Below are positions 2-47,315 of a stretch of DNA of 64,000 nucleotides, one piece after another. The number at the start of each line of letters is the position of its first letter. Within the stretch, counting starts at the first letter, position 1. Source of the DNA: Rhodocytophaga aerolata (GTDB taxonomy: Bacteria; Bacteroidota; Bacteroidia; Cytophagales; 172606-1); the NCBI RefSeq assembly GCF_030503435.1, contig NZ_JAUKPO010000013.1, positions 124,001 to 188,000 of the forward strand. Reading direction: 5' to 3'. A model generated the notes under the pieces. It did not search any database. It saw only the letters and a list, made by a program, of their open reading frames with translations, and was not told where the DNA came from. Position numbers and translations under genes: made by a program.

Positions 2-868
2 ACCGATTCAGAAAAACTACTGGAAAAAATTATGGCTGCTAAAGAAGCAACGGACATTGCGCCATTAATACATATAGAAAAGACAGAGGGCGTACTACCC
101 CAAAAAACAAGTCAAAAGCATCCAAGTGTATTTCCATTATGGGCTAGATATGCCGCTGTGGTCACAGGTGTATTGGTACTTGCTTTTGCCTTTTGGATCA
201 CAAGTAAAACAGATACCATCATGGAAAAAACAGCTTTTGGCGAAACGAAAACTGTTATACTTCCAGATGGATCTACGGTAATCTTAAACGGAAACTCTAG
301 TCTGCAGTATCAAACGGATTTTCATCTGGCGGAAATCAGAGAAGTCTGGCTGGATGGAGAGGCGTTTTTCTCCATCGCACACCTGCCAGAAAATCAAAAG
401 TTTATAGTAAATACTTCCGATAACTTTAATGTAGAAGTGCTAGGCACCACCTTTAATGTGCTGACAAGGGAGGAAAAAACAAAGGTTGTTTTAAACACCG
501 GTAAAATTAAACTGAATATCCGCCCGGATGAAAACACAGAAGAGCATCTGGTAATGAACCCTGGCGAGTTAGTGGAGTTTGATAACTTATCTACCACGTA
601 TATTAAACGCAAGGTAAATCCTGAAGCCCATTCTTCCTGGAAAAGCAAGAAAATGATTTTTGAAAATACAAGCCTCTCAGAAATCTTGTTGCTGCTGGAA
701 CATACCTATGGCCTTGAAGTAGAAGTTGCCGACACTAGCCTGCTGAGTCAAAAAGTAAACGGAACTATCCCTACTGAAAATGTGGAGGTGTTGCTGGAAG
801 GACTTACGCATGTGTTCAGCTTAAAAATTTCCAGAGATAATCAAAAAGTTATTATAGAAAACCAATAA
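2..868 (+). CDS. FecR-family anti-sigma factor (5' end outside window)
   Basis: This is an inner-membrane anti-sigma factor of the FecR type, which holds an ECF sigma factor until a SusC-type receptor signals. The reading frame is open to the left edge. The first ATG at 32 gives only 278 residues, whereas the family is normally about 320-400, so roughly 50 N-terminal residues (the cytoplasmic sigma-binding part) are probably outside. Counted from that ATG, a single membrane helix lies at residues 38-57. A FecR periplasmic domain follows at about 65-165 (the segment reading VILPDGSTVILN is typical), and a DUF4974-like C-terminal domain covers about 205-278. The STN-containing SusC gene starts 18 bases downstream, the expected partner. 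An ECF sigma gene is predicted just left of the window (inference). Confidence 0.93.
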   Translation, partial: TDSEKLLEKIMAAKEATDIAPLIHIEKTEGVLPQKTSQKHPSVFPLWARYAAVVTGVLVLAFAFWITSKTDTIMEKTAFGETKTVILPDGSTVILNGNSSLQYQTDFHLAEIREVWLDGEAFFSIAHLPENQKFIVNTSDNFNVEVLGTTFNVLTREEKTKVVLNTGKIKLNIRPDENTEEHLVMNPGELVEFDNLSTTYIKRKVNPEAHSSWKSKKMIFENTSLSEILLLLEHTYGLEVEVADTSLLSQKVNGTIPTENVEVLLEGLTHVFSLKISRDNQKVIIENQ

Positions 869-4354: not shown

Positions 4355-4386
4355 TGATTCATAGGTAGCAATTAACATTACATACG

Positions 4387-5913
4387 ATGAAAAATAAACT
4401 GTTTATATTAACCATTGCCTCTGTTTTTGGGGTAGCTTCTTCCTGTAATGAGGATGATTTAGAGAAAAACACGAATCCAAACAACTTAACAACAGAGACT
4501 TTCTATAAAAATGAAGCACAAGCACTTTCAGCAGTAAATGCAGTGTACGCCGGGTTGCAGGCGAATAACCTGTATAACAGAGAGTACTTCTTTTTACACG
4601 ATCTGCTTTCAGACGATAACCAGTCGGGTGGTCCACAATTGGAAGCCCCCAGAGGCCAGATACTCAACCATGTATTTGATGCCTCAAATCCACTTGTTCT
4701 GGCAGTATGGCGTGGATTATACCGGATGATTCACCGGTCTAACCTGGTTATTGAAAATGTTCCAAAAGCTGACGATGTGCTGGTTCCGCCAGCCCTAAAA
4801 AACCGTATTGTAGGAGAAGCACGATTCTTGCGTGCATGGGCATATTTTGATTTGGTAAGCCTTTGGGGAAGAGTCCCTTTAATGACAGAGGTTGCTACGG
4901 CACCGGCAGATAACAAAGCCCGTTCCTCTTCAGAAGACGAAGTATATGCCGTTATTTTTGAGGATTTGACGTATGCAGCAGAAAATCTTCCCTTAAGATA
5001 TACCGGATCGGATATTGGCAGAGCTACTAAAGGAGCCGCACAAGCACTAGCCGCCCGAGCCCATATGTTCCGTGGTGAATATGCAGAAGCCAGACCCTTA
5101 TTAAATGAAGTAATTACCTCAGGAGTTTACAGCCTGATACCCAACTTCATCGAAAACTTCCGCGAAGAAAATGAGTTCAACAGCGAATCTTTATTTGAAG
5201 TGCAGTTTACCGAAGCTTTCGGTGATAGTGGCGGATGGAACGCAGATGGCAGTGGAATTGCTGAAATAACCTTCCGTGGTCAGGAGTATGGTCCGAATGC
5301 CTGGCGAAATGTAATACCCTCTAACAGTTTGGTGGCTGAATTCGAAACAGTTGCTAATGGGGCTACCAAAGATGATCCCCGCCGCGCAAGTTCGTTTTAC
5401 TTTATCGGCGACCAGTTTGCGAACGATACCAAAACCTTAACTACCACTGATGTTCAGGGAGATGTAACCAAGCCAAGCTGGAAAAAATACCAGATGATTT
5501 ACAAACGGGATACCGAAAATTCCAGGTCTGGTATAAACATGCGGGTCATCCGGTATGCAGACGTTCTTCTTATGATGGCAGAATGTGAAAATGAGTTAAC
5601 CGGGCCAGTTGCCGCATTACCCTATATTAATCAAGTAAGAGCCAGGGCTACCATGCCGCTTTACCCAACAGCCCAGTATCCAGCCAGTACAAAAGAAGAA
5701 ATGTTGCGGGCTATTGTGCATGAACGGAGGGTAGAGCTAGCCGGGGAGCAAATCCGCAACCGGGACATCCGCCGGTGGCGTAAACAAGGTAAACTTGCTG
5801 CCGAACCTATTGCTGGTTTTCAGAGTGGTAAACATGAGTTACTGCCCATCCCTTTAGAAGAGATAGATAATAATAGCTCATTGACTAATGCCGACCAGAA
5901 TCCAGGATACTAG
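4387..5913 (+). CDS. RagB/SusD-family substrate-binding lipoprotein
   Basis: Surface lipoprotein of 508 residues that caps the preceding SusC barrel and binds the substrate. The lipoprotein signal peptide ends with lipobox ASSC (Cys20). The SusD-like N-terminal domain and TPR-like helices follow (AVNAVYAGLQ, then ARFLRAWAYFDLV near residue 145). The family C-terminal region is recognisable from VIRYADVLLMMAE and ERRVELAGEQIRNRDIRRW, and the protein ends in NADQNPGY, the usual SusD ending. It is co-directional with SusC across a 32-base gap, and a clear terminator follows at 5928-5965, so the first operon is probably sigma/FecR-SusC-SusD. SusD-family membership is certain; ligand unknown. Confidence 0.96.
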   Translation: MKNKLFILTIASVFGVASSCNEDDLEKNTNPNNLTTETFYKNEAQALSAVNAVYAGLQANNLYNREYFFLHDLLSDDNQSGGPQLEAPRGQILNHVFDASNPLVLAVWRGLYRMIHRSNLVIENVPKADDVLVPPALKNRIVGEARFLRAWAYFDLVSLWGRVPLMTEVATAPADNKARSSSEDEVYAVIFEDLTYAAENLPLRYTGSDIGRATKGAAQALAARAHMFRGEYAEARPLLNEVITSGVYSLIPNFIENFREENEFNSESLFEVQFTEAFGDSGGWNADGSGIAEITFRGQEYGPNAWRNVIPSNSLVAEFETVANGATKDDPRRASSFYFIGDQFANDTKTLTTTDVQGDVTKPSWKKYQMIYKRDTENSRSGINMRVIRYADVLLMMAECENELTGPVAALPYINQVRARATMPLYPTAQYPASTKEEMLRAIVHERRVELAGEQIRNRDIRRWRKQGKLAAEPIAGFQSGKHELLPIPLEEIDNNSSLTNADQNPGY

Positions 5914-5927: not shown

Positions 5928-5965
5928 AACAAAAGCTCTTTCTTGCAAAAGGGAGAGCTTTTGTT
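5928..5965 (+). terminator. Intrinsic terminator after first SusD
   Basis: A 12-bp perfect stem (5928-5939 with 5954-5965) has a 14-base loop, with T-rich sequence on the 3' arm. It lies 15 bases after the SusD stop and separates the first SusCD operon from the CRTAC1-like gene. Confidence 0.8.
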
Positions 5966-5995: not shown

Positions 5996-8308
5996 ATGAA
6001 CATTTTCTCTTCATTTGTTATAGGAATTATTTGGAAGGTAGGGGTTACAGCAAGTATACTGTATTTGCTAGTGGGTACTTCCTGTCAAAAGTCTGACAAA
6101 CAGTTACCTATGGTAAAGTTGTTGGAGAAGGTTAGTAAAGAAAAGTTTTATGTTTCAGAAAATATATATGCAAGCAGTGTCAGAGTTGCGTATTATGATA
6201 GCCTGTGGCAACAAGCAGGTCCATCTGAGAAAAATAAGTATCTCTTCCAGAAAGCAGTAAATCTATTATATGGCGGCCAAACTACCCAGGCCATTCAATT
6301 GTTGGAAAACCTACTTGCCATTAAAAAACAGCATTACATAGTTGAAGGTTTACAAGCCTATGAGGAAGATCAGCTGGAAGAATTGACCGCTCTGGCCTAT
6401 TTGAGGTTGGGAGAGCAGGAAAACTGCATTCTGAATCATACGGCTGCCTCATGTATCATACCTATTCGTCCGGAAGGCTATCATCAGTTGCCACAGGGTT
6501 CCCAGCAAGCCATACATATTTATCAGCAATTACTCAAGCAAAACGGGTATGATCACAGCAGTCGATGGTTATTGAATGTAGCATATATGACGCTAGGGAA
6601 ATATCCTGGAGACGTACCATCCGAATGGTTAATTGATGAAAGTGCTTTTCGATCGGCCTATCCTTTACCTAGATTCAAAGATATTGCTCCTGACCTTGGG
6701 TTAGATGACAATCGCCTGGCGGGTGGAGCTATTACCGATGACTTTAACAACGACGGATTCATAGACCTGATGCTTACCAGTTGGGGGGCTAATCACCAGA
6801 TGAAGTTTTTTATCAACGTGGGTAATGGAACGTTTACGGAAAAAACAATTGAAGCAGGTCTGCAAGGAATCACCGGTGGATTAAATATGATTCAGGCTGA
6901 TTATAATAATGATAATTTTTTGGATGTGTTTATTTTACGGGGCGCCTGGCTTGAAAAATTAGGCGGCCATCCGAACTCACTTCTGCGTAACAATGGCAAT
7001 GGTACCTTTACAGATGTTACCTATGAAGCAGGTCTGCTTTCATTTCATCCCACACAAACCGCCGTATGGACAGATGTAAATCTGGATGGTTGGCTTGATC
7101 TTTTTATCGGGAACGAAAGCACAGCTTCAGACAATATTCATCCCTGCGAATTATTCATCAATCAGCAAAATGGCACATTTAAAGAGGTGGCTCAGCAGGC
7201 AAACATTACTGTCAGCAGGGCAGTAGGAGACATATATTATGTAAAAGGCGTAAGTGCTGCCGATTATAACAAAGATGGATGGCCGGATATCTATGTGTCA
7301 GCCTTAGATGACCGTAATAGAAATCTGTTATTCCGCAATAATGGGGTTGATAGAAATGGTATTCCCACCTTTACAGAAGTAGGAATAGATGCCGGGCTAG
7401 GGGAAACTATTTCCTCCTTTCCTACATGGTTCTGGGATTATAATAATGATGGATGGCCGGATATTTTTGCAGCAGGCTTCCGAAGGAGCAACCCCTGGGA
7501 ATCCATAACTGAAGATGTAGCGGCCGAATATTTAGGCTTACCCCATCAGGCAGAAACTGCCAGACTTTATCTGAATAGAAGAGACGGAACTTTTACAGAT
7601 GTAACCAAACAAGCAGGACTTAAAAAAATCACGTATGCGATGGGAGCCAATTTTGGAGATATGGATAACGATGGTTTTCTGGATATGTATTTAGCTACTG
7701 GCGAAGTTAATTTTGCATCCATCATACCAAACCGGGCTTTCCGTAACGAGCAGGGAACGATTTTTCAGGATGTAACAACCTCTGGTGGTTTTGGACATTT
7801 ACAAAAAGGGCATGGCGTATGCTTTGCCGACCTGGATAATGACGGAGATCAGGATATTTATGTTGTGATGGGAGGTGCGTATGAGGGGGATGGTTTTCAA
7901 AATGCCTTATTTCAAAATCCGGGAAATACCCACGGATGGATCACATTACAACTTGAAGGAAAAGAAGCGAACAGGGCAGCCATTGGAGCACAAATTAAAA
8001 TTACCGTCCTTGATAGTGCTGCAAATAGAAGAATAATATATAGTACTGTTAATTCCGGAGGCAGCTTTGGTGCTTCCAGTCTACAACAAGAAATAGGCCT
8101 GGGTAAAGTGAAATCAATTGAACAAGTGGAAATTACCTGGCCAGATACGAAGCAAACCACAACCTTATATACGCAACTAAGTCTTAACAAAAAATATAAA
8201 ATTATGCAGGGTGCCGCAAAACCTATACCAGTTAACATACCAGTAATCGAGTTTGATTCTTCTTTAAATGAGCATACTTCAACCCAAGCGCATTCCATCC
8301 ATAAATAA
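5996..8308 (+). CDS. CRTAC1-like lipoprotein: TPR-like N-terminus, FG-GAP/VCBS propeller, ASPIC/UnbV domain
   Basis: Predicted surface or periplasmic lipoprotein of 770 residues with lipobox VGTSC (Cys30). Residues about 50-215 look like TPR-type helices. At least seven repeats with the D-x-[ND]-x-D-G-x-x-D calcium-binding pattern follow (for example DDFNNDGFIDL and ADLDNDGDQDI), typical of an integrin-like beta-propeller. The ASPIC/UnbV domain is at about 655-740 (IGAQIKITV, GGSFGASS, VEITWPD). Such CRTAC1-like proteins are common beside SusCD genes in Bacteroidota, but their biochemical role is not established. A terminator lies before it, so it probably has its own promoter. Its domain kinship to the two FG-GAP proteins at 14348-19705 ties both halves of the locus together. 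Confidence 0.9.
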   Translation: MNIFSSFVIGIIWKVGVTASILYLLVGTSCQKSDKQLPMVKLLEKVSKEKFYVSENIYASSVRVAYYDSLWQQAGPSEKNKYLFQKAVNLLYGGQTTQAIQLLENLLAIKKQHYIVEGLQAYEEDQLEELTALAYLRLGEQENCILNHTAASCIIPIRPEGYHQLPQGSQQAIHIYQQLLKQNGYDHSSRWLLNVAYMTLGKYPGDVPSEWLIDESAFRSAYPLPRFKDIAPDLGLDDNRLAGGAITDDFNNDGFIDLMLTSWGANHQMKFFINVGNGTFTEKTIEAGLQGITGGLNMIQADYNNDNFLDVFILRGAWLEKLGGHPNSLLRNNGNGTFTDVTYEAGLLSFHPTQTAVWTDVNLDGWLDLFIGNESTASDNIHPCELFINQQNGTFKEVAQQANITVSRAVGDIYYVKGVSAADYNKDGWPDIYVSALDDRNRNLLFRNNGVDRNGIPTFTEVGIDAGLGETISSFPTWFWDYNNDGWPDIFAAGFRRSNPWESITEDVAAEYLGLPHQAETARLYLNRRDGTFTDVTKQAGLKKITYAMGANFGDMDNDGFLDMYLATGEVNFASIIPNRAFRNEQGTIFQDVTTSGGFGHLQKGHGVCFADLDNDGDQDIYVVMGGAYEGDGFQNALFQNPGNTHGWITLQLEGKEANRAAIGAQIKITVLDSAANRRIIYSTVNSGGSFGASSLQQEIGLGKVKSIEQVEITWPDTKQTTTLYTQLSLNKKYKIMQGAAKPIPVNIPVIEFDSSLNEHTSTQAHSIHK

Positions 8309-8561
8309 GCTTGCTGCCTAATATAGTTACCCTACACGGGCAAGGCGTACAAAGTAAGGCTCTGATAATTAGCATTACTTTATAAAATGAAAAATCATTT
8401 TTTATTTAAAAAAAAATAATAGAAAAAGGTTTACAGGATATTTCTTATAAATAATATTACTTGAGAGTGCAGATTTAAAATTATTTTGGATATTTTTGAT
8501 AACAAATAAAATATATAAAATAAATTGTATTTAAAGCCCAAGTTTTTTAACTTAGCAGGGT

Positions 8562-8569
8562 TATATTTG
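8562..8569 (+). promoter_or_regulatory. Candidate Bacteroidota -7 element
   Basis: TATATTTG matches the Bacteroidota primary-sigma -7 consensus TAnnTTTG. The expected -33 TTG about 19 bases upstream is replaced by a T-run at 8543-8548, so the match is partial. It would drive the small ORF at 8658 and/or the second SusC gene. Confidence 0.35.
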
Positions 8570-8657
8570 ATGCAAAGTGTTCCTAATATTTAGGATTCAA
8601 GTAATTAAAGAAACAGCAAAAAAAGGATACTGATTACTAAAATTTAAAAGGACTGAT

Positions 8658-8789
8658 ATGGTAAAAACTTTACTATCGCTTAAACACAGAAGTATTTCTG
8701 ATTCAACCACCCATGCAACTCCGGTAATAGACAATGCATTTGTCATACCTTTTACGAAAGCTTCCAATTTTCGGTCCAGCCACGCTTAA
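8658..8789 (+). CDS. Possible small peptide (43 residues) in the SusC leader
   Basis: An ATG ORF of 43 codons, preceded by AAAAGGA seven bases upstream and lying 89 bases after a TAnnTTTG element. The peptide is Ser/Thr/His-rich with a basic start (MVKTLLSLKHRSI) and no membrane helix. It resembles no family known to me. Length, an acceptable initiation region and isolated position in a long leader are the only support; it could be chance in AT-rich DNA. Confidence 0.25.
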   Translation: MVKTLLSLKHRSISDSTTHATPVIDNAFVIPFTKASNFRSSHA

Positions 8790-8998
8790 TTGTATTTAAA
8801 CATTTGATGTTCTTAAATCCACGCCAAAAGCAGAGGTGTATAGGTATTTAAATTGTACTTTACTAATAATTAATGTTACATAAATCGTAAATTTTATTCT
8901 AATTTTTAACCCTAAATTTTTAATATGAACAAAAAAATGTAAATGTAAAACGCTGTACACTAATTTATTACAACTATTTTAACCTTAAGTCAATTACT

Positions 8999-11900
8999 AT
9001 GTTTAACAAAAAACAATTCTTTACCCGTCGATCAGAGGATTTTACCTTTGAAGCAACTGGCCAAGGACCGGGCACCGGATCTGTAAGAAAAAACTCAAAC
9101 CTTAAGTTTGGGGTATCTTTAGCTGCTTTGGCTTTTTGTCTTCTATTTTTTGCCTTCCCTACATTTGCACAAAACCGTACGGTAACAGGCACGGTTACCG
9201 CATCTGACGATGGCTCTACCTTACCTGGTGTAAACGTTTTAGTTAAAGGAACTACATCAGGTACTACTACCGACGGTAATGGTAAATTCTCTATTAGCGT
9301 TCCAGGAAATGATGCAACCTTAGTATTCAGCTTCATTGGATATACTGCAGAAGAAGTAGCCGTTGGCGCCAGATCTGTCATAGATGTAGGACTTGTTCCG
9401 GATGTACAATCCTTACAAGAAGTGGTAGTTACAGGGTATACCACTGAAAACAGACGGGATGTAACCGGTGCGGTAGCTACTGTAAAAGCTAGAGACTTGG
9501 TAGCGGTTCCCTCGGGTAACGTTGAGCAGCAATTACAAGGCCGCGTACCTGGCGTTACGGTTATCACCAATGGCCAGCCTGGTACAACCAGTGTGGTACG
9601 TTTAAGAGGATTTGGTGCTTTTGGTGGCAATGAGCCTCTTTATGTCGTAGATGGGGTACCTGTAGGTTCTACTGATTTTCTTAACCCTGATGATATTGAA
9701 ACTACTACTGTCCTGAAAGATGCACCTTCAGCCTCTATATACGGAGCTCGTGCAGCTAATGGGGTAATTGTTTATACTACCAAAAAAGGATATGATGGCA
9801 AAATGCGTGTAACCTACGATGGGGTGTTTGGGGTGTCTACACCAGGGAAAGTGAATAACATTCTGAACCCACAAGAACAAGCCGATTGGACTTGGCAGGC
9901 GAAGCGTAATACAGCACAGCAACTTGGTTATGCGCCTGGTAGTGAGCTATACAATAATCTATTCAAAACTGACCAGTACGGCAACGATCCGGCAGGTCCA
10001 GTATTGCCCGATTACCTAATGGTAGGCAATCGATTTGGAGTGGTTGGTAATATTAATCTTGATGAAGAAAGAGCCAAGTACAATAATGATCCACGTTTAG
10101 GATCTGTGTATCTGGTGATGCCAGCCGATAAAAACGGCACTAACTGGTATGATGCCCTAACCCGCCCTGCCCTGCTTAACCGCCATACCTTAGGTTTTTC
10201 AGGAGGTAGCGAACGGAGCAAGTATTACATTAGCCTGGGCATGCAGAACCAGCAAGGCGTTCTGATTCACCAAAAATTTGAGCGGTATGCTATGCGCCTC
10301 AATTCCGAACATAACCTAGCCAAAGGGGTACGATTCGGACAAACCCTTCAGGGTACTTACATTCGCCGGCAAGGACTAGTAGGAGGTAATGGCGGTCGTG
10401 GTGCAGCGGGTGAAGAAAACAATTGGCTGGATGCCTTCCGGATGCCAGCTATCATTCCAGTGTACGATGCCTTCGGCGGCTACGCAGGTACACAGGCAAA
10501 AGGCTTCAACAACCCGCGTAACCCTGTTGCAGCCCGCGACCGGTCTTCTGACAATGGCGGCTTTGGGTATGGATTGTTTGGAAACTTTTATGTAGAAGTA
10601 GATCCCATCAAAGACCTTACTTTGCGTAGTAGCATCGGTGGCGGTCTTTCCTCAGGCTTTTCTAATTTCTACAGCCTACCTTCTTATGAGAATTCAGAAA
10701 ACCAGTCAGCCTACTCTTATGGTGAAAATTACAACTGGGGTGCCAACTGGGTGTTTACTAACACAGCTCGTTACAATAAAAAGTTTGGTATACATACCAT
10801 CGATCTGTTAGGCGGTATAGAGTCTCTGAATACTGGTTTTGGAAGAAATATAGGTGGCAATGGCCAGTCTCCTTTTTCGCGTGATCCAAACTACGTTACC
10901 CTGACTACTACCGGTAATCGCGTAGTGAACAGCGGCTACAACAGAGGTATAACTTTCTTCTCTATTTTTGGTCAGGCCAAATATATTTTCAATGACAAGT
11001 ACATCTTTACTGGCGTACTGCGTCGTGACGGTGCTTCTAGTTTCGGCCCTGAAAACCGCTATGGGGTATTTCCTGCAGCATCTGCTGCCTGGCGTATTTC
11101 ATCAGAAGACTTTATGTCTGGCGTACCATTTATTAATGACCTGAAAATACGGGGTGGTTACGGAATGATGGGGAATACCAGCGGACTTAGCTCCAGCAAC
11201 CAGTTTAGCTTATTTGCTGCCGACCTGGGTTCTTCTTTCTACGACATTACCGGCGGTAATGCAGCACCTGAACAAGGTTTCTTCCGTAACCGGATAGGTA
11301 ACCCTGCCGCTAAATGGGAAACATCTATTACGTCTAACATCGGTTTTGATGGGTCGTTCTTTGATGGCAAACTTGATGTAGTATTCGACGTATGGAGAAA
11401 AGACACCAGAGATCTCCTCTACTCCTTAGAGACGGCAGCTGTAATAGGACCTCAGGCAACTGATCCTGCCATCAACATCGCAAAGATGCGGAACGAAGGT
11501 ATTGATATAGGAGTGACCACACGGGGCACCCGCGGGGCTGACTTTAATTACGAAGTGACCTTAAGTGCATCTTTCCTGAACAATGAGATCGTAGCATTGG
11601 CGCCAGGTGTTGAGTACTTTGAACCTTTTACACTCCGGAATATCACTCCAATCCGTAATCAGGTAGGCCGTTCTATCTCGGCATTTTATGGCTATGATGT
11701 AGTAGGACTTTTTCAGAATCAGGCAGAAGTAGACGCCGCTCCAACACAAGATGGTAAAGCTGTAGGACGTTTCCGTTACAGAGACATCAACGGCGACGGA
11801 GCGATTACTGTAGACGATCGTACCTACTTGGGTAGTCCGGTACCAAAGTTCAATGGAGGGATCAATATTAAATTAGGGTATAAGAACTTCGAGTTCGAAA

Positions 11901-12346
11901 CATTCCTGCAAACCTTCCTGGGAGTACAGAACTACAACTTCTCTAAGTGGTATAACAACTTCTATCCTTCATTTACTGGAACGGCCTACAGCACAGCAGT
12001 AAAAGAGTCATTCACCTTTGAAAGAGGTGGTAACACTGTACCGATTTTTGAGGATGCATCTAACTTCAGTACCAACACGCAATCAAACTCTTTCTATATA
12101 GAAAGTGGTAACTATGCCCGTTTGACTAACCTGCAGCTGGCTTACAAACTACCAGAGAGCATGATGGGACGGTATGGTTTTTCAAGAGCACGGGTTTACC
12201 TGCAAGCTACTAACCTGTTCACTATCTCCAAATATTCAGGTTTGGATCCAGGAGTAGCAGGTAATGCAGATACTACACTGGGTATTGATGTGGGTAACCC
12301 ACCTATGCCCCGCGGCTATAACATCGGTTTAAATCTTACCTTCTAA
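8999..12346 (+). CDS. SusC/RagA TonB-dependent receptor (no STN domain)
   Basis: Outer-membrane TonB-dependent transporter of 1115 residues. The N-terminus is unusually long before the signal-peptide hydrophobic core (about 37-55), with cleavage likely after TFAQ near residue 58. The carboxypeptidase-regulatory-like domain (about 60-140, TLPGVNVLVKGTTSGTTTD) is followed by the signature LQEVVVTGYTTENRRD, the plug (about 150-265), and a barrel ending in NLTF. There is no STN domain, so unlike the 887-4354 receptor it should not signal through FecR. Strong similarity in the plug region shows the two are paralogues. SusD follows after a 63-base gap. Substrate unknown. Confidence 0.96.
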   Translation: MFNKKQFFTRRSEDFTFEATGQGPGTGSVRKNSNLKFGVSLAALAFCLLFFAFPTFAQNRTVTGTVTASDDGSTLPGVNVLVKGTTSGTTTDGNGKFSISVPGNDATLVFSFIGYTAEEVAVGARSVIDVGLVPDVQSLQEVVVTGYTTENRRDVTGAVATVKARDLVAVPSGNVEQQLQGRVPGVTVITNGQPGTTSVVRLRGFGAFGGNEPLYVVDGVPVGSTDFLNPDDIETTTVLKDAPSASIYGARAANGVIVYTTKKGYDGKMRVTYDGVFGVSTPGKVNNILNPQEQADWTWQAKRNTAQQLGYAPGSELYNNLFKTDQYGNDPAGPVLPDYLMVGNRFGVVGNINLDEERAKYNNDPRLGSVYLVMPADKNGTNWYDALTRPALLNRHTLGFSGGSERSKYYISLGMQNQQGVLIHQKFERYAMRLNSEHNLAKGVRFGQTLQGTYIRRQGLVGGNGGRGAAGEENNWLDAFRMPAIIPVYDAFGGYAGTQAKGFNNPRNPVAARDRSSDNGGFGYGLFGNFYVEVDPIKDLTLRSSIGGGLSSGFSNFYSLPSYENSENQSAYSYGENYNWGANWVFTNTARYNKKFGIHTIDLLGGIESLNTGFGRNIGGNGQSPFSRDPNYVTLTTTGNRVVNSGYNRGITFFSIFGQAKYIFNDKYIFTGVLRRDGASSFGPENRYGVFPAASAAWRISSEDFMSGVPFINDLKIRGGYGMMGNTSGLSSSNQFSLFAADLGSSFYDITGGNAAPEQGFFRNRIGNPAAKWETSITSNIGFDGSFFDGKLDVVFDVWRKDTRDLLYSLETAAVIGPQATDPAINIAKMRNEGIDIGVTTRGTRGADFNYEVTLSASFLNNEIVALAPGVEYFEPFTLRNITPIRNQVGRSISAFYGYDVVGLFQNQAEVDAAPTQDGKAVGRFRYRDINGDGAITVDDRTYLGSPVPKFNGGINIKLGYKNFEFETFLQTFLGVQNYNFSKWYNNFYPSFTGTAYSTAVKESFTFERGGNTVPIFEDASNFSTNTQSNSFYIESGNYARLTNLQLAYKLPESMMGRYGFSRARVYLQATNLFTISKYSGLDPGVAGNADTTLGIDVGNPPMPRGYNIGLNLTF

Positions 12347-12409
12347 ACAATCAGTGAGAGGTTGGATGAGCAGTATTCATCCACCTTCACTCTTCAAAAA
12401 AACGATTTT

Positions 12410-14152
12410 ATGAAAAAAACAATTAGAACTTTCGCAGTAATTGCTGCCATAATGCTTGGCCCAATTGCCTGTAAAGACGAGTTTCTGGAGGTGCCCGTAA
12501 CAGGCCAGCTTACAGATGCATCATTGAATACCCAGGCAGGGCTTGAAGGCTTACTGATTGGGGTGTACTCTCAGCTAGACGGTTCAGGCGGAGGTGGTGA
12601 ATGGCATGGGGGAGCTGTTAACTGGTTATGGGGAAGCATCCGCGGTGGAGATGCCAACAAAGGCTCTAACGCTGGTGATTTCAACTCAATGACTCCAATA
12701 GAACGTTTTGAACCACAGGTCAACAACGGAGAGCTGAACGCCAAATGGATGGGCTCCTATGAAGGCGTAGCCCGTGCCAATTCGCTTTTGGCTATCATGT
12801 CCAAGGCTACAGCGGTACCGGAAGCTGCCAAAACACGTATTGCGGCTGAGACGCGCTTCCTGCGGGCTCACTTTTACTCAGAATTGCGGAAAAATTTTAA
12901 GATGGTTCCATGGGTAGACGAAACAATGACTGATGCTGAAGCTGTTAAGGTACCAAACAATACTGATATATGGCCGAATATTGAAGCCGATTTTCAGTTT
13001 GCAGCGGATAACCTGCCGGAAACACAGCCTCAGGCAGGTAGAGCCAATAAATGGGCAGCCATGTCTTATCTGGCGAAAACATACATGTTCCAGAAGAAAT
13101 ATGCGGAAGCCAAGACTTTATTCGACAACATCATTGCCAATGGCAAAACTACCAATGGCAAAAAATACGGCTTATTTCCCGATTTTGATGGATTGTTCAA
13201 CTTAGAAAACGAAAACTCAGAGGAATCTATCTTTTCATTTCAGGCAACTGGGGGTGCAAGCAGTACCAATAATGCGCTCCACGAACTGGCTATGGCTCAG
13301 CCATACGGAGCAAAAATTGGCGAGGAAGCTGGCAGCGACTGCTGTGGCTTCTTTCATCCAAGTTTCGATTTGGCTGCTTCGTATCGCACAGCCAATGGCC
13401 TTCCTTTGTTAGATGGATCTTACCGCACTGGCACAAATGAGCTAAAAGCGGATCAGGGTCTGGCTACCACTGATGCTTTTACGCCAGATCAGGGGCCAGT
13501 TGACCCTCGCCTTGACCATACAATTGGCCGCCGGGGCCTTCCGTTTGAGGACTGGGGCCTTCACCCCGGGAAAGCCTGGATTCGTGACCAGAATTTTGCC
13601 GGACCCTATACACAAGAGAAGTATGCCTTAAATAAGAATGAATATGCTACCCGCGATGCCAGCGGATGGACACCAGGTTACCAGGCAACTAACTTCATGA
13701 TTATCCGCTTCGCCGATGTACTGCTGATGGCAGCGGAAGCAGAAGTAGAAGTAGGAGACCTGGAAAAAGCCCGGATGTATGTAAATATGGTACGGGCACG
13801 CGCTGCTAATCCTGCAACTTTTGAGAAGATGCCGGACGGTTCGAATGCAGCAAATTATGTAATTAGTGAATATCCTGCTGGCTGGACGCAAGATTTTGCC
13901 CGGGATGCTGTTCGTTTCGAGCGTAAGCTGGAATTGTCCCTGGAAGGGCATCGTTTCTACGACCTTGTACGGTGGGGCATTGCTGAGCAGGCGCTGAACT
14001 CTTACCTGGTTTACGAGGCAGGCAAACTTCCTAGTCAATTTGGTGGCCCTCAGGCCGTCTTCAGTGCAGCTGAGGACGAATACCTGCCAATTCCTCAGCG
14101 TCAGGTGGATTTGCAAGGCAACGATGTCTTAACACAAAACCCCGGATATTAA
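12410..14152 (+). CDS. RagB/SusD-family substrate-binding lipoprotein (second copy)
   Basis: Surface lipoprotein paired with the second SusC. The frame is open from 12362, but the ATG at 12410 gives a proper lipoprotein signal peptide (MKKTIRTFAVIAAIML, lipobox PIAC), so that start is chosen, giving 581 residues. SusD hallmarks are AETRFLRAHFYSEL near residue 145, a TPR-like stretch KTYMFQKKYAEAKTLFDN, MIIRFADVLLMAAEAEVE, ERKLELSLEGHRFYDLVRWG, and the ending LTQNPGY. A strong terminator follows at 14184-14216. It is longer than the first SusD, with an insertion around residues 280-400 that may reflect a different ligand. Confidence 0.95.
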   Translation: MKKTIRTFAVIAAIMLGPIACKDEFLEVPVTGQLTDASLNTQAGLEGLLIGVYSQLDGSGGGGEWHGGAVNWLWGSIRGGDANKGSNAGDFNSMTPIERFEPQVNNGELNAKWMGSYEGVARANSLLAIMSKATAVPEAAKTRIAAETRFLRAHFYSELRKNFKMVPWVDETMTDAEAVKVPNNTDIWPNIEADFQFAADNLPETQPQAGRANKWAAMSYLAKTYMFQKKYAEAKTLFDNIIANGKTTNGKKYGLFPDFDGLFNLENENSEESIFSFQATGGASSTNNALHELAMAQPYGAKIGEEAGSDCCGFFHPSFDLAASYRTANGLPLLDGSYRTGTNELKADQGLATTDAFTPDQGPVDPRLDHTIGRRGLPFEDWGLHPGKAWIRDQNFAGPYTQEKYALNKNEYATRDASGWTPGYQATNFMIIRFADVLLMAAEAEVEVGDLEKARMYVNMVRARAANPATFEKMPDGSNAANYVISEYPAGWTQDFARDAVRFERKLELSLEGHRFYDLVRWGIAEQALNSYLVYEAGKLPSQFGGPQAVFSAAEDEYLPIPQRQVDLQGNDVLTQNPGY

Positions 14153-14183
14153 TTTTATAAATTAATATATATCTAGAGTGATT

Positions 14184-14216
14184 AAAACAGGTCAGGTAGT
14201 TTATCTGACCTGTTTT
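14184..14216 (+). terminator. Intrinsic terminator after second SusD
   Basis: A 12-bp perfect stem (14184-14195 with 14205-14216) with a 9-base loop, followed by a run of T residues to 14219. It ends the second SusCD operon. Confidence 0.88.
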
Positions 14217-14347
14217 TTTATAGGTAGCTAAATAATTATGTTTTATTCATATTAAGACTATATTCTGCAGAAGAGTTTTAAATTACTTAAATTGCTCATT
14301 AATAAAGCTTGCCATTCAACGATCTGCTTTTGCTACAAATTACTAGA

Positions 14348-15976
14348 GTGAAGATATTTAGGTACGTGTGTTCAACCCTGAAAAATTGTGCGGGTTTAGT
14401 ATTGCTAGTAGGAGTCACAATCTTCTCATGCACTTCTAGAACAGAAACAGCATCCAGTGAAACATCTGACCTTGATTCTTTAAAAATATTATCTGCTACT
14501 GTCCATACATTAAATGAACGCCAAGTGGCGCAAGCCCTTTGCGGAAGTTGTCATGAATTTCCCGATCCGGCACTTCTCGATAAAAATACCTGGAAAAAAG
14601 GCGTTCTTCCACATATGGCTCTACGACTGGGTTTTATGTCTTTTGCAAACAATCCCTATGCTAAGCTATCCAGAGCAGAAATAGAAGCAGTTGTAAAAGC
14701 AAATGTTTTTCCGCATGAACCTATAATTGATACGGCAACCTGGGAGAAAATTGTACATTTTTATGAACAGGAAGCCCCTCAAACGCCTCTAAAGCAAGAT
14801 AAAAAAGCGGTAATTCTACACGATATGCCAGCTTTTGAAATAATTCCAAAGAAAATTCCTGGCAATCCCATGCCCTTAGCTACTTTGTTGCGATTTGATG
14901 CGAAGTCTAGCAACTGGTATATAGGCAACCGTCAGGCTATGTTGTATAAGCTTACTACACAATTTCAAGTTGTGGACTCGCTGAAACTGGACAGCCCCCC
15001 AGCTGATCTTACCCATGATTCACAAGGAAATATACATATTGTAACCATGGGAGTAATGGACCCGAACGATAAGGCAGCAGGGAAAATTATCAAATTAGGT
15101 GCACCCACTTTTAATGTAAATCAGTCGACTACTACACTAGATGGGCTGCTCCGGCCGGTACAAATGCTATTTCATGATTTAAATGCAGACGGTCTGGAAG
15201 ATAAAGTAGTTTGTGAATTTGGAAATTATACAGGTAAACTTGTTTGGTATGAAAACGAAGGCAATGAAAGATATACGCAACACATCCTGAAACAGAAACC
15301 AGGCGCACGGAAAGTTTTAGTACAAGACATTAATAAAGATACATTTCCGGATGTAGTTGTTTTAATGACACAAGGTGACGAAGGAATTTTTGCTTATATA
15401 AATGATGGGAAAGGCAATTTTACAGAAACCATTCTCCTTCGTTTTCCCCCAGTCTATGGATCAAGCGATTTTCAGTTGATAGATTTTAATGAAGACGGTT
15501 TGCTTGACATAGTATATGCTAATGGCGACAATGCAGACTTCTCCTATTCACTAAAAAAATACCATGGGATACGCCTGTTTCTTAATAAGGGAGGCAATTC
15601 ATTTGAGCAAAAATGGTTTTATCCAGTGCATGGAGCTACCCAGGCAGTAGCCTGTGATTTTGATCAGGATGGAGATCTGGATATTAGTACGATCGCCTTT
15701 TTTCCGGATTTTGCAAATGTAGCCGATGAAGGCTACCTGTACTTTGAAAATACTGGCAATCTTTCATTCCAGCCTCGGACTTTTCCGAATGCTTCCTTAG
15801 GTAGATGGCTCACCATGGAGACAGGCGATTTTGACCAGGACCATGATGTAGATATTGCTTTAGGGTCATTTATTTTTTCAGCAACGCCAGTGCCGCCAGA
15901 AAAAAGGCAAGAGTGGCTCAGAAATGGATATCATGTAGTCATTCTTGAAAATAAAACTTGCCATCCCGCCCGGTAG
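14348..15976 (+). CDS. FG-GAP/VCBS repeat lipoprotein with an N-terminal c-type haem motif
   Basis: Predicted exported lipoprotein combining a haem-attachment motif with a beta-propeller. No in-frame ATG precedes the signal peptide. GTG at 14348 gives a clean lipoprotein signal (lipobox IFSC, Cys28) and is preferred over TTG at 14309, which directly follows a stop. Numbered from the GTG, a CGSCH motif sits at 65-69, matching covalent haem c attachment (CxxCH), and a His-Met pair follows in LPHMALRLG. Five repeats of the D-x-[ND]-x-D type come later (LNADGLED, INKDTFPD, FNEDGLLD, FDQDGDLD, FDQDHDVD), with no ASPIC domain. The gap to the giant FG-GAP gene downstream is 168 bases. Electron transfer between a surface substrate and the respiratory chain is plausible but inferred. 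Confidence 0.85.
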   Translation: MKIFRYVCSTLKNCAGLVLLVGVTIFSCTSRTETASSETSDLDSLKILSATVHTLNERQVAQALCGSCHEFPDPALLDKNTWKKGVLPHMALRLGFMSFANNPYAKLSRAEIEAVVKANVFPHEPIIDTATWEKIVHFYEQEAPQTPLKQDKKAVILHDMPAFEIIPKKIPGNPMPLATLLRFDAKSSNWYIGNRQAMLYKLTTQFQVVDSLKLDSPPADLTHDSQGNIHIVTMGVMDPNDKAAGKIIKLGAPTFNVNQSTTTLDGLLRPVQMLFHDLNADGLEDKVVCEFGNYTGKLVWYENEGNERYTQHILKQKPGARKVLVQDINKDTFPDVVVLMTQGDEGIFAYINDGKGNFTETILLRFPPVYGSSDFQLIDFNEDGLLDIVYANGDNADFSYSLKKYHGIRLFLNKGGNSFEQKWFYPVHGATQAVACDFDQDGDLDISTIAFFPDFANVADEGYLYFENTGNLSFQPRTFPNASLGRWLTMETGDFDQDHDVDIALGSFIFSATPVPPEKRQEWLRNGYHVVILENKTCHPAR

Positions 15977-16088
15977 CACAGCAAAATGACGGTCTTGTAT
16001 ATAAGAAGTAACCGCATAAATTCTGTAAAGAGCTGTTATCAGTTTAAACTAGAAAGGTTTATATATGCATCGATTTACTTGGTTCTCC

Positions 16089-16119
16089 TTGTAAAATACC
16101 ACTAAAAATTGTATTTTTA
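16089..16119 (+). promoter_or_regulatory. Candidate promoter for the giant FG-GAP gene
   Basis: TTG at 16089-16091 and TATTTTTA at 16112-16119 (consensus TAnnTTTG with one mismatch) are 20 bases apart. The predicted transcript would begin about 20 bases before the ATG at 16145, which favours that start over the upstream TTG at 16109. Confidence 0.35.
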
Positions 16120-16144
16120 CTATTTAATATCTTCTTACCCCTGT

Positions 16145-19100
16145 ATGTGTAGTAAGCTATCACCATTCTATCTGCTACTAATTCTTAGTGCTTTACTTTT
16201 GGGTGCTTGTGAATCCAAAAAGACTCTGTTTAGCCTTATACCTGCCGATAATTCGGGAATTACTTTCTCGAACACCATTGTTGAGAATGATACCATGAAC
16301 ATACTAGATTTTGAGTACGTGTATAATGGGGGAGGAGTGGCTATTGCAGATTTCAACAATGACGGTTTACAGGATGTGTTCTTTTCAGGAAACCAGGTTT
16401 CAAATCAACTTTATTTAAATAAGGGTGATCTGGAATTTAATGATATCACTGAAAAAGCTGGTATAAATGGGCAAGGAAAATGGTCCTCAGGCGTAGCCGT
16501 GGTCGATATTAATAACGATGGCCTGATGGATATTTATGTAGGAGCCACTGTAAACAAAGTTGCGAGGTTGCGGGAGAACATGTTGTACATAAACCAGGGT
16601 GTTCAGGAGGATGGCCTGCCAGTTTTTAAAGATTTAGCAAAAGAATATGGGGTAGCAGATGATGGACACACCACTACTGCCGCTTTCTTCGATTATGATA
16701 ACGACGGCGATCTGGACCTGTATGTAGTAACCAATACCATAGAAAACTATCCCAATACATACCGGAAAAAAGTACTTGACGGCAGCTCGCCAACAACCGA
16801 CCGGCTTTACCGCAACGATTGGAACGAACAGCTAAAGCATCCGGTATTTACTAATGTATCTAAGGAGGCAGGCATAGTAGCCGAAGGATATGGCTTGGGA
16901 ATAAACATAACCGATATTAACCGGGACGGATGGCAAGATATATATGTTACCAACGATTATATAACCAACGACTTACTATATATTAACAATGGCAACGGAA
17001 CATTTACCGACAAAGCAGCCACTTATTTTAAGCACACAAGTAATTCGGCTATGGGAAATGATATTGGTGATATCAATAATGATGGCCTCGTAGATGTGGT
17101 GGTGGTGGATATGCTTCCGGAAGATAATTACCGGAAAAAAGTGCTTATGGGTGCTAACAACTACCATGGGTATATAAATAACGACACATATAAGTATACG
17201 TACGAATATGTACGGAATACATTACAACTTAATCAGGGCAACAAACCAGGAACCAATGAACCGATTTTTAGTGAGATCAGCCTGTTAGCTAATATGGCCC
17301 AAACAGACTGGAGCTGGTCGCCGCTGATTGTAGATTTCGACCATGATGGTAACCGGGATTTGGTGGTTACCAACGGATTTCCAAAAGATGTTACTGACCG
17401 GGATTTTATATCTTTCCGTGCACAAAGTTCATCTGTTGCCTCTAAAGAATACATTTTGTCACAGATTCCAGAGGTAAAGATAAAAAATTACGCATTCCGC
17501 AATAATGGTGACCTTACATTTACAAAAGTTACGGACGAATGGGGATTCACGCAGCCTTCTTTTTCAAATGGTGCGGCTTTTGGAGACCTGGATAATGACG
17601 GCGATCTGGATTATGTAGTAAATAATATTAATGACCAGGCTTTTGTTTACCGCAATAACCTGGTAGAGAAAAACCTCCCTAATTCAAACTATCTACGCAT
17701 CGTATTTAAAGGCGCTGAAAAAAATAAGATGGGCTTAGGGGTTTTGGTCGAACTGGAGTTACCAAACGGGCAAAAGCAGGTATATGAACATACCATTTAT
17801 AGAGGCTACCTGTCTTCTATTGAAAATGCTGCTCATTTTGGCTTAGGAAGTAACCCGGTAGTCAAAAAAATTAACATAGTATGGCCTGGAGGGAAAAAAC
17901 AACTGTTGGAAAATATACAGGCAAATCAGACACTAACAGTAGATATAAAGAATGCCTCGTCAAGTAAAGAGCCGGTATTGGCTGCTGAAACCATACTTAC
18001 GGAAGTTACCGATTCACTTCATGTTACCTATGTACATCAAGAACCTGATTATATTGATTTTAATGTTCAAAAACTGCTTCCTCATAAACTTTCTCAGTAT
18101 GCACCTGCCCTTGCTGTGGGAGACGTAAACGGAGATGGCCTAACCGATGTATTTACCGGCGGTTCACGGCAGCACCAGGGAGTATTTTTTATGCAAAACA
18201 GTAAGGGAAATTTCGAACAGAAGGAATTGCTGCCTGCTATAAAACAAGACTTAAAAGAGCAGGAAGACATGGGTACACTACTGTTTGATGCAGATGGAGA
18301 TAATGACCTGGATTTATATATTGCCAGCGGAGGAAGTGAAAAAGAAGGAAATAATCAGGCTTACCAGGACAGGTTATATATAAACGATGGAAAAGGTAAT
18401 TTTTCACTTGCTCAGGAAGCATTGCCGCCATTTACCATTAGCAGCAGTTGTGTAAAAGCCGCCGACTTCGATAAAGATGGCGACCTAGACCTGTTCGTTG
18501 GCGGCCGTGTAGAACCAGATAAGTATCCGAAACCAGTTACCAGCTACATTTTGCGGAACGATTCTAAACCCGGTGAACCTAAATTTACAGATCTTACCAC
18601 ACAAGTAGCTAGTACACTTACTAGTATAGGCCTGGTTTGCGATGCCCTATGGACAGATTATGACAATGATGGCTGGATAGACCTGCTATTGGCCGGAGAA
18701 TGGATGCCCCTGACGCTGCTAAAAAACAACGGTGGAAAACTGGAAAATGTAAGTTCCCAGGCCGGACTCGCTTCCCATACCGGATGGTGGAACAGTCTGC
18801 TTTCCGGAGATTTTGACAACGACGGAGATACCGATTATATAGCAGGCAACCTGGGATTAAATTCGCTGAATAAAGCATCCGACGAATACCCGGTAACTGT
18901 TTATGCAAAAGATTTTGATAATAATGGTAGTTTTGATGCCATTCCGACAACTTTTTTTCCCGATAATACCGGAGCCCTGAATGAATATACTTTTCATGGA
19001 CGCGAAGACCTGATTAAACAGATGATCAGTATGCGGGCACGTTTTCCGTACTACAAAGATTTTGCTAATGCCTCCTTAGATAAATTACTTTCCGCAGATG

Positions 19101-19705
19101 AAAAAAAAGATGCGCTTATTCTAAAGGCAAATTACTTAAGTACCTGTTATCTGGAAAATACAGGGAAAGGCAACTTTATCATTAAAGCACTCCCTGTACA
19201 AGCACAAGTAGCGCCGGTTTTTGGAATGATTGCTACTGATATTGACAATGATAGCAATTTAGACGTGCTACTGGTGGGCAATGATTTCGGGAATGAGGTT
19301 ATGATGGGCCGCTATGATGCATTTAATGGGCTGATTTTAAAAAACAATGGGAAAGCGGAATTTAAGCCATTACCTTTACAAGAAAGTGGGTTTTTTATAC
19401 CTGGTAATGCAAAAGCCCTGGCTCAGTTTACTACCAAAGATGGCCACCAGATGATCATAGCTTCACAAAATAGGGGCAGACTGTGTTTGTTTAAGAATAA
19501 ACAGAGTACAGAGATTATTAAACTACAACCCAACGATGCATTTGCCTGGATAACTTATGCAGATGGCCACAAAAAGAAAGAAGAATTTTATTATGGACAT
19601 TCATTTCTTTCACAATCGGCCAGGGAATTAATGTTGCCGGAAAATGTGAAAGAGGTAGAAATTTATACCTACCAGGGAAATAAACGGACCTTACCTTTGC
19701 AGTAA
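16145..19705 (+). CDS. Giant double-propeller FG-GAP/VCBS lipoprotein with central ASPIC/UnbV domain
   Basis: Predicted surface lipoprotein of 1186 residues. ATG 16145 is chosen because it gives a clean signal peptide with lipobox LGAC near residue 22; the frame upstream to TTG 16109 adds a non-signal extension. The first propeller (about 35-510) has seven calcium-loop repeats such as ADFNNDGLQD, FDYDNDGDLD and GDLDNDGDLD. An ASPIC/UnbV domain is central (about 520-602, with KINIVWPGGKKQ). A second propeller (about 645-1150) carries seven more (GDVNGDGLTD, ADFDKDGDLD, GDFDNDGDTD, TDIDNDSNLD and others). In the 770-residue relative ASPIC is C-terminal, so here a second propeller has been added. 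The haloperoxidase-like gene starts 75 bases downstream. Role likely adhesion or scaffold; enzymatic activity unknown. Confidence 0.9.
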   Translation: MCSKLSPFYLLLILSALLLGACESKKTLFSLIPADNSGITFSNTIVENDTMNILDFEYVYNGGGVAIADFNNDGLQDVFFSGNQVSNQLYLNKGDLEFNDITEKAGINGQGKWSSGVAVVDINNDGLMDIYVGATVNKVARLRENMLYINQGVQEDGLPVFKDLAKEYGVADDGHTTTAAFFDYDNDGDLDLYVVTNTIENYPNTYRKKVLDGSSPTTDRLYRNDWNEQLKHPVFTNVSKEAGIVAEGYGLGINITDINRDGWQDIYVTNDYITNDLLYINNGNGTFTDKAATYFKHTSNSAMGNDIGDINNDGLVDVVVVDMLPEDNYRKKVLMGANNYHGYINNDTYKYTYEYVRNTLQLNQGNKPGTNEPIFSEISLLANMAQTDWSWSPLIVDFDHDGNRDLVVTNGFPKDVTDRDFISFRAQSSSVASKEYILSQIPEVKIKNYAFRNNGDLTFTKVTDEWGFTQPSFSNGAAFGDLDNDGDLDYVVNNINDQAFVYRNNLVEKNLPNSNYLRIVFKGAEKNKMGLGVLVELELPNGQKQVYEHTIYRGYLSSIENAAHFGLGSNPVVKKINIVWPGGKKQLLENIQANQTLTVDIKNASSSKEPVLAAETILTEVTDSLHVTYVHQEPDYIDFNVQKLLPHKLSQYAPALAVGDVNGDGLTDVFTGGSRQHQGVFFMQNSKGNFEQKELLPAIKQDLKEQEDMGTLLFDADGDNDLDLYIASGGSEKEGNNQAYQDRLYINDGKGNFSLAQEALPPFTISSSCVKAADFDKDGDLDLFVGGRVEPDKYPKPVTSYILRNDSKPGEPKFTDLTTQVASTLTSIGLVCDALWTDYDNDGWIDLLLAGEWMPLTLLKNNGGKLENVSSQAGLASHTGWWNSLLSGDFDNDGDTDYIAGNLGLNSLNKASDEYPVTVYAKDFDNNGSFDAIPTTFFPDNTGALNEYTFHGREDLIKQMISMRARFPYYKDFANASLDKLLSADEKKDALILKANYLSTCYLENTGKGNFIIKALPVQAQVAPVFGMIATDIDNDSNLDVLLVGNDFGNEVMMGRYDAFNGLILKNNGKAEFKPLPLQESGFFIPGNAKALAQFTTKDGHQMIIASQNRGRLCLFKNKQSTEIIKLQPNDAFAWITYADGHKKKEEFYYGHSFLSQSARELMLPENVKEVEIYTYQGNKRTLPLQ

Positions 19706-19780
19706 ATCATCCAGGAAACAAGCCAAAAGCATCTTAATAGAATAATCTAACTATAGACATATACTTACAAAGATAGTTTC

Positions 19781-21139
19781 ATGAAAACATGTTATCTGTT
19801 AGCACTGGTCGTATGGACTTGTCTTCTGGCAAGCTGCACCACGGAAGAAAAACGTGAAGCCTCAACCTTCAAACCTGACAATCCGGACGTATTACACGCG
19901 ACTGTCAAAAAATTAACTGATGTAATTGTATACGATATCTTTTCCCCACCGGTTGCCAGCCGGATTTATGCGTATTCCAGCCTGGCAGCTTATGAAGCCA
20001 TCCGGTTCCAGGACCCAAAGCAATATCCCTCATTTGCCACTAAACTCAATGGATTTTCTTCTATTCCACAACCTGAATCCGGCAAAACGTATGATTATAC
20101 ATTGGCAGGAATCAAAGCCCTAATGACGGTTGCCCAGAAAGTAACTTTTTCTGTTGATACGTTAAAGATATTTGAACAAAACCTGATGGAAAACTATGAA
20201 CATGTACTCAACAAAGAAGTATATGATAGATCAGTGCTGTTTGGAGAGGAAGTAGGTAAGGCAATTCTGGCCAGATCTACCCAGGATAATTACAAACAAA
20301 CCAGAGGATTTGCCAGATATACAGTAACAGAATCGGAAGGTAAGTGGCGGCCAACACCTCCAGATTATATGGATGCCACAGAGCCGTACTGGAATACCAT
20401 TATGCCTCTGGCTCTGGATTCGGCTGCTCATTGCAGGCCTCCTAAACCTCTGGAATATAAAACAGATGCCCAAAGCCCTTTTTACCAGGAATTCAAATTA
20501 GTATATGATATTGGTAAGAATATAACTGAAGAACAAAGAGAAATCGCCCGTTTCTGGGATGACAATCCTTTTGTATCCCATCATACTGGGCATGCAACGT
20601 TTGCAACTAAAAAGATGACACCCGGAGGACATTGGATGGCTATAGCCTCTCTGGCAGCCCGGCAAACAAATGCGGATGTTATAAAAAGCGCACAAACCTA
20701 TGCCTTAACAGCTACCGCTTTGTTCGATGGCTTCATTTCATGTTGGGAGGAAAAATACAGGAGCCAGTATATACGGCCAATCACTGTTATCCATCAGCAA
20801 CTAGATGAGCATTGGGAACCTTTGCTGCAAACACCTCCCTTTCCAGAGTATTCAAGCGGCCATGGGGTAATTTCTTCTTCAGCAGCTACTGCACTTACCT
20901 TCTTATATGGAGAAAATTTTGCTTTCACGGATACTACAGAATTAGAATATGGAATGGGACAAAGAAGTTTTACGTCATTCAATCAAGCGGCCATAGAGGC
21001 ATCGCTAAGCAGGTTATACGGGGGCATCCATTATAAATTCACTTGTTTAGCTAGTGCTGAACAAGGGAAAAAAGTAGGCCAACAGCTATTGGCCAGAACA
21101 GGATTAACTAAACCGGAATGGGTAACTGCTAATCAATAA
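19781..21139 (+). CDS. Vanadium-dependent haloperoxidase-type lipoprotein (PAP2 fold)
   Basis: Exported lipoprotein of 452 residues with lipobox LASC (Cys19). All three motifs of the vanadium haloperoxidase/acid phosphatase (PAP2) superfamily are intact: K325-x6-R332-P333, S359-G360-H361, and R411-x5-H417. These residues bind vanadate or phosphate, with the histidines acting in catalysis. The architecture and spacing match bacterial vanadium haloperoxidases, which oxidise halides with hydrogen peroxide; a phosphatase of the same fold cannot be excluded from sequence. It is the last gene of the + strand locus, 75 bases after the giant FG-GAP gene, and ends at a strong bidirectional terminator. 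Together with the haem-motif protein it suggests oxidative chemistry in the periplasm or at the cell surface. Confidence 0.88.
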   Translation: MKTCYLLALVVWTCLLASCTTEEKREASTFKPDNPDVLHATVKKLTDVIVYDIFSPPVASRIYAYSSLAAYEAIRFQDPKQYPSFATKLNGFSSIPQPESGKTYDYTLAGIKALMTVAQKVTFSVDTLKIFEQNLMENYEHVLNKEVYDRSVLFGEEVGKAILARSTQDNYKQTRGFARYTVTESEGKWRPTPPDYMDATEPYWNTIMPLALDSAAHCRPPKPLEYKTDAQSPFYQEFKLVYDIGKNITEEQREIARFWDDNPFVSHHTGHATFATKKMTPGGHWMAIASLAARQTNADVIKSAQTYALTATALFDGFISCWEEKYRSQYIRPITVIHQQLDEHWEPLLQTPPFPEYSSGHGVISSSAATALTFLYGENFAFTDTTELEYGMGQRSFTSFNQAAIEASLSRLYGGIHYKFTCLASAEQGKKVGQQLLARTGLTKPEWVTANQ

Positions 21140-21158: not shown

Positions 21159-21202
21159 GCCAAAAGAAAAGGCCAGAATCATTTCTGGCCTTTTCTTTTG
21201 GC
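21159..21202. terminator. 20-bp perfect bidirectional terminator
   Basis: Arms 21159-21178 and 21183-21202 pair perfectly over 20 bp around a 4-base loop, with A-rich and T-rich outer arms. It lies between the convergent haloperoxidase-like (+) and GH20 (-) genes and can terminate both. Confidence 0.88.
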
Positions 21203-47197: not shown

Positions 47198-47239
47198 GCT
47201 TTTTCAGCATCCAACTATCACCGATGCTGCACAATTACC

Positions 47240-47271: not shown

Positions 47272-47315
47272 ATACCCTAACTTCTCATTACGCCAGTATC
47301 CCTTACTCTATCTGT

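Follow-up and report, generated by a model that had tools for sequence, protein, structure and literature searches.

Bacterial haloperoxidases of the VIPO1 type are vanadium enzymes whose structure has been solved and whose physiology is little known; the Zobellia galactanivorans VIPO1 is said, from work by Fournier in 2014, to be specific for iodide. The SusCD systems, which pair a SusC/RagA TonB receptor with an adjoining SusD lipoprotein, are known in Bacteroides to form stable complexes with a further lipoprotein and an enzyme (PMC7618045). Here we describe a locus of Rhodocytophaga aerolata in which the genes for these two kinds of system stand together. The window, by which we mean the whole 64,000-nucleotide stretch that was analysed (NZ_JAUKPO010000013.1, positions 124,001-188,000; feature coordinates are window positions), encodes a SusC2-SusD2 pair, a propeller lipoprotein with a haem-binding motif (FGcyt), a large FG-GAP/ASPIC propeller lipoprotein (ASPICL), and a PAP2-superfamily lipoprotein that we identify as a putative vanadium haloperoxidase (VHPO). 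Since the haloperoxidase and propeller genes have evolved together, this VHPO-ASPIC-SusCD cassette probably works as a single unit for oxidation and uptake at the outer membrane. The parts belong to known families; no description of a conserved SusCD-ASPIC-haloperoxidase unit was found in the limited selection of open-access literature searched.

Conservation of the haloperoxidase-propeller pair

The 80 nearest loci in named genomes come mostly from Mucilaginibacter, and they repeatedly carry SusC-SusD-ASPICL-VHPO accompanied by FGcyt in one or two copies. Because of the dominance of this genus, a sample of 296 Bacteroidota genomes was drawn. A VHPO homologue (E<=1e-60) is found in 58 of them, covering 41 of 140 genera; copies are underrepresented, as the search scored at most five candidates per genome. 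Among the 72 close-clade VHPO genes with more than 2 kb of upstream sequence, an ASPICL gene of 1,100-1,200 codons lies less than 400 bp upstream in 42 (32 genomes, 21 genera, 10 families) and within 7 kb in 55. With wider SusC and SusD models, ASPICL is present at 56 of the 72 loci, in 11 families, and 36 loci (18 genera, 11 families) combine it with SusC or SusD, which is the gene content of a utilisome. Family counts are the safer measure here, because genes within one genome are not independent. In 20 of these genomes, with 103 ASPIC-domain places, an ASPIC gene precedes 27 of 37 VHPO genes on the same strand by no more than 2.5 kb, where random placement predicts 0.05, an enrichment of several hundred fold; these genomes were picked after their neighbourhoods had been seen, and the unselected figure is therefore 42 of 72.

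The two genes are also tightly spaced. ASPICL and VHPO are separated by a median of 9 bp, and in 27 of 107 pairs the genes run into each other, with stop-start overlaps among them. In 65 adjoining pairs, the distances in the VHPO and ASPICL trees correlate with r 0.65, a value reached in none of 2000 permutations. Where a genome holds paralogous pairs, VHPO and the ASPICL next to it agree in 82 of 125 nearest neighbours in other genomes, with about 10 expected, and the partners have therefore stayed together across paralogues. The content of the cassette is kept while its order changes: the FGcyt gene may precede ASPICL, separate it from VHPO or follow VHPO. Taken from gene neighbourhoods and trees, the link at assembly level between SusCD, ASPIC and VHPO appears strong.

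The first-pass annotation of this DNA had proposed that VHPO, the propellers and both SusCD pairs of the locus form one machine that would oxidise or halogenate a surface-bound substrate, with the propellers as a possible scaffold, and had made this depend on a neighbourhood conserved beyond close relatives. The neighbourhood is indeed conserved, in 10-11 families, and together with the tight spacing and the co-evolution this supports one functional system of VHPO, ASPIC propeller and SusCD for the second SusCD pair and its neighbours. The first cassette (FecR-SusCD1 and ASPICs, a 770-residue ASPIC protein) is tied to the VHPO cassette only weakly. The same type of 770-residue protein adjoins the SusC-SusD-ASPICL-VHPO cassette at loci L018 and L065 as well, and across 24 genomes only one of its four close relatives lies beside a VHPO.

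In the R. aerolata genome itself about nine matches to VHPO homologues occur, of which two fall in a single gene (G000:C33, C111, C121, C117, C11, C169), and three homologues, including the one described here, have an adjoining ASPIC gene. In several families (L104, L112, L113, L139, L143, L165 and others), VHPO is found among or beside genes for glycoside hydrolase family 65 (GH65), trehalase and major facilitator superfamily (MFS) transporters, with tandem ASPIC genes, and looks as if it were attached to an alpha-glucoside utilisation locus.

Identity of the haloperoxidase

The best solved relative of VHPO is the Zobellia enzyme 4CIT (phmmer E 6.7e-127, 427 bits, residues 6-438 of 452), with 46% identity over 426 aligned positions along the full length. 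The first-pass annotation had noted a PAP2 domain with a complete vanadate site, and all seven residues (K325, R332, S359-G360-H361, R411 and H417) prove identical in 4CIT. The third motif of acid phosphatases is SRx5Hx3D; the corresponding stretch of VHPO, SRLYGGIHYKFT, does not match it, since the final Asp is absent, as it is in 4CIT. On account of the homology, the seven vanadate residues and the Asp missing from both proteins, the predicted identity as a vanadium haloperoxidase is well supported. In 160 close homologues all seven site residues are kept in 132, while Trp322 and Phe354, which match 4CIT, are kept in every one. Homologues in which the vanadate-site Ser is replaced by Ala, counted below, are a possible subgroup with altered chemistry.

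The propeller proteins

The structure of ASPICL, which is predicted with confidence (predicted local distance difference test, pLDDT, 84.4), has as its best Foldseek match mouse cartilage acidic protein 1, CRTAC1 (PDB 9ETN; E 3.9e-28), which is also its best match in sequence. The two share an FG-GAP propeller and an ASPIC domain. CRTAC1 covers about half of the 1,198-residue ASPICL, the first half being CRTAC1-like, and ASPICL differs further in being a predicted lipoprotein whose gene stands beside SusCD. Among the invariant columns of ASPICL are FG-GAP positions rich in Asp, of the kind that binds calcium, and the protein probably binds calcium. Away from any VHPO, 16 of 20 ASPIC places flank SusC and/or SusD; ASPIC proteins are therefore general partners of SusCD, and VHPO is a frequent extra.

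FGcyt appears to be a mono-haem c-type domain carried on a propeller. Its haem site would be formed by C78-x2-C81-H82 with M103 as axial ligand, and its model (pLDDT 82.8) has an N-terminal helical domain followed by the propeller. The CxxCH motif occurs in 74 of 75 relatives; an alignment of 22 sequences shows no variation at either Cys or at the His, and at least 90% of the sequences retain Met103. That the whole protein acts as a haem peroxidase is not supported, as the haem domain is small and sits on a propeller. The second fold match, aldos-2-ulose dehydratase (PDB 4A7Z), extends over the propeller with 12% identity and a TM-score of 0.5. The domain make-up of the two proteins differs and probably only the propeller fold is common to them; dehydratase-like chemistry was rejected, since the similarity is at the level of the propeller fold.

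FGcyt has no second copy in the R. aerolata genome at E<=1e-20. VHPO is present in 23 of 30 genomes with FGcyt, compared with 58 of 296 overall. A role as strict VHPO partner was nevertheless rejected, several copies being located elsewhere, and FGcyt is best regarded, from this distribution, as a putative redox accessory of a wider system and not as an obligate VHPO partner.

Hairpins and transcription units

The locus had been read at first pass as one co-directional block, from 5996 to 21139, closed by a single strong terminator. A very strong hairpin does follow VHPO (Table 1), but it is not the only one: terminator-like hairpins also follow SusD1 and SusD2, and a 690-bp gap separates the end of ASPICs (8308) from SusC2. 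A single operon over this span was rejected because of these internal hairpins and the gap. Relatives conserve a hairpin at this position: 74 of 90 SusD-to-ASPICL gaps contain one with a U run, where shuffled sequences predict about one, and in 6 of 10 SusD-to-ASPIC gaps at loci without VHPO. The same type occurs in none of 106 SusC-SusD, 107 ASPICL-VHPO and 50 VHPO-FGcyt gaps. The hairpin after SusD is thus placed as an intra-operon attenuator would be, which it probably is, and would lower the expression of the downstream accessory lipoproteins relative to SusCD.

Proposed mechanism

By analogy with the levan and dextran utilisomes (PMC7618045), we propose a SusCD core joined by ASPICL and by VHPO, the latter as the surface enzyme. 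SusCD would act as the TonB-driven importer, and the FG-GAP/ASPIC lipoprotein as a surface capture or docking subunit of the kind that goes with SusCD generally. VHPO would be the enzyme subunit, converting H2O2 and halide into hypohalous species that would attack the substrate held by the propeller and so generate pieces or forms that SusCD could import. Through a one-electron redox centre, FGcyt may transfer electrons or handle peroxide. Chloroperoxidase chemistry has been reported to render lignin-like material more degradable (PMC7854439), which makes an oxidative step before uptake plausible. We give somewhat less than an even chance to the proposal that SusC2-SusD2-FGcyt-ASPICL-VHPO is a utilisome-type outer-membrane assembly of this kind, in which VHPO oxidises a captured substrate for import by SusCD. 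Rather doubtful is the bolder suggestion of a phylum-wide class of redox utilisomes, where VHPO on a calcium-binding double propeller, aided by the haem-propeller, would oxidatively open hydrolase-resistant substrates whose products SusCD then imports.

Several observations weigh against such an assembly. About a quarter of close VHPO genes have no ASPICL nearby, as do 14 of 17 in a distant VHPO clade, and lone VHPO copies also occur in R. aerolata. FGcyt is found away from VHPO in some lineages, including at SusCD-ASPICL loci that have no VHPO. The vanadate-site Ser is Ala in 20 of the 160 close homologues (L010-L192; KRAGHRH pattern). Across relatives, the cassette has no conserved gene for the production of peroxide. 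Pfam detects no carbohydrate-active enzyme between FecR and 21139, and there is none between the sigma factor and the final terminator, so that the unit does not have the make-up of a polysaccharide utilisation locus and gives no hint of the substrate.

Alternative explanations

The main rival is that the system acquires or detoxifies iodide or other halides: an iodoperoxidase would oxidise iodide with H2O2, and SusCD-ASPIC would import oxidised iodine or iodinated organics, or else the system would rid the cell surface of peroxide and reactive halogen. We regard this as unlikely, although our results do not separate iodide handling from substrate oxidation. It draws on the Zobellia iodoperoxidase, which of all characterised enzymes is the nearest relative, and on three reports: iodine uptake by Arenibacter C-21 needs glucose, oxygen and calcium, with H2O2 able to substitute for glucose; the same genome has at least five such haloperoxidase genes (PMC5064120); and Zobellia vIPO3 is induced on a brown alga (PMC9296495). 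The association with SusCD, however, together with the GH65, trehalase and sugar-type MFS transporter genes found in some families, points to organic substrates, partly alpha-glucosidic ones in those lineages. Many cassette hosts moreover belong to genera such as Mucilaginibacter, which is non-marine.

A phosphatase at the surface, trimming a phosphorylated substrate ahead of its import by SusCD, would account for the Pfam match, which is to PAP2 only, and for active-site residues that PAP2 phosphatases and haloperoxidases have in common. It is made improbable by the full-length similarity to a solved haloperoxidase, by the missing final Asp of the phosphatase motif and by the strict retention of Trp322 and Phe354. 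More improbable still is that these genes merely accumulate together in regions rich in polysaccharide utilisation loci, with no joint function. ASPIC and SusCD genes are common and multi-copy, the 770-residue ASPIC cassette is inconsistently linked and lone haloperoxidases exist, all of which speaks for co-accumulation; the enrichment, the stop-start overlaps and the partner-specific co-evolution of paralogues speak against it, and for the ASPICL-VHPO pair this explanation is already disfavoured.

Organisation of the locus

The features of the locus are collected in Table 1. The parts named at first pass are borne out: FG-GAP_3 repeats in three lipoproteins, a CGSCH motif in one of them (FGcyt), signal-like N-termini with a lipobox-like Cys in these three and in the PAP2 protein, and two co-directional SusCD pairs (887-5913 and 8999-14152; TIGR04056, TIGR04057 and PF07980). 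Of the three FG-GAP proteins only ASPICs and ASPICL have an ASPIC/UnbV domain. The start of the unit at 5996 did not hold, as the sigma gene, FecR, SusC1 and SusD1 lie further 5'. The FGcyt, ASPICL and haloperoxidase proteins receive no specific name from NCBIfam, and PADLOC gave no match to anti-phage defence. The TTG starts listed for several open reading frames are mechanical, and internal starts are likely for those at 14309 and 16109.

Table 1. Features of the haloperoxidase locus and its surroundings
Feature	Position	Strand	Basis
Extracytoplasmic function (ECF)-type sigma gene	L193:5077-5631 (just 5' of FecR, outside the window)		sigma-like open reading frame by reading
FecR-type anti-sigma protein	32..868	+	Pfam FecR and FecR_C
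SusC1, TonB-dependent outer-membrane transporter	887..4354	+	TIGR04056 925 bits, TIGR04057 signature
SusD1 lipoprotein	4387..5913	+	PF07980
Terminator-like hairpin, U-rich 3' arm, after SusD1	5928..5965	+	fold z -4.1
ASPICs, 770-aa FG-GAP/ASPIC lipoprotein	5996..8308	+	PF13517, PF07593; lipobox GTSC
SusC2	8999..12346	+	TIGR04056 774 bits
SusD2 lipoprotein	12362..14152	+	PF07980
Terminator-like hairpin and U run after SusD2, probable attenuator	14184..14219	+	fold z -5.9
FGcyt, 555-aa lipoprotein, predicted mono-haem c-type domain fused to FG-GAP propeller	14309..15976	+	
ASPICL, ~1,190-1,198-aa lipoprotein, FG-GAP repeats along its length and ASPIC domain	16109..19705	+	
VHPO, 452-aa predicted VIPO1-type vanadium haloperoxidase lipoprotein, PAP2 superfamily	19781..21139	+	
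20-bp hairpin, probable terminator shared with convergent GH20 gene	21159..21202	+	fold z -8.4

Elsewhere in the window, the minus strand encodes at 25928-29704 a 1,258-residue fusion of ThuA, DUF7133, HEAT, CARDB and a C-terminal cupredoxin domain, which overlaps a GFO/IDH/MocA oxidoreductase gene. On the plus strand, 45020-49493 holds two tandem large-subunit genes of the molybdopterin-binding, xanthine dehydrogenase type, both of 725 codons and followed by XdhC; the pair looks like a duplication.

Relation to known systems

Across Bacteroidota, consistent coupling to SusCD and ASPIC points to a role for the VIPO1-type haloperoxidases that can be tested, and oxidation may accompany hydrolysis in some SusCD systems. 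The widespread, so far unassigned bacterial FG-GAP/ASPIC proteins gain a concrete context as SusCD partners, and the halogen chemistry of bacterial surfaces is relevant to iodine cycling and to the formation of terrestrial organohalogens. The R. aerolata VHPO resembles Zobellia galactanivorans VIPO1 (PDB 4CIT, 4USZ) in its full-length homology, identical vanadate site and lipoprotein-like N-terminus, and is set apart by the SusCD-ASPIC cassette to which its gene belongs. Like the Bacteroides thetaiotaomicron utilisomes for levan and dextran (PMC7618045), the cassette, which would form a putative complex, encodes SusCD together with further surface lipoproteins and an enzyme. It differs from them in its FG-GAP/ASPIC accessory and its haem protein, and in that a predicted peroxide-dependent oxidase here takes the place of the glycoside hydrolase.

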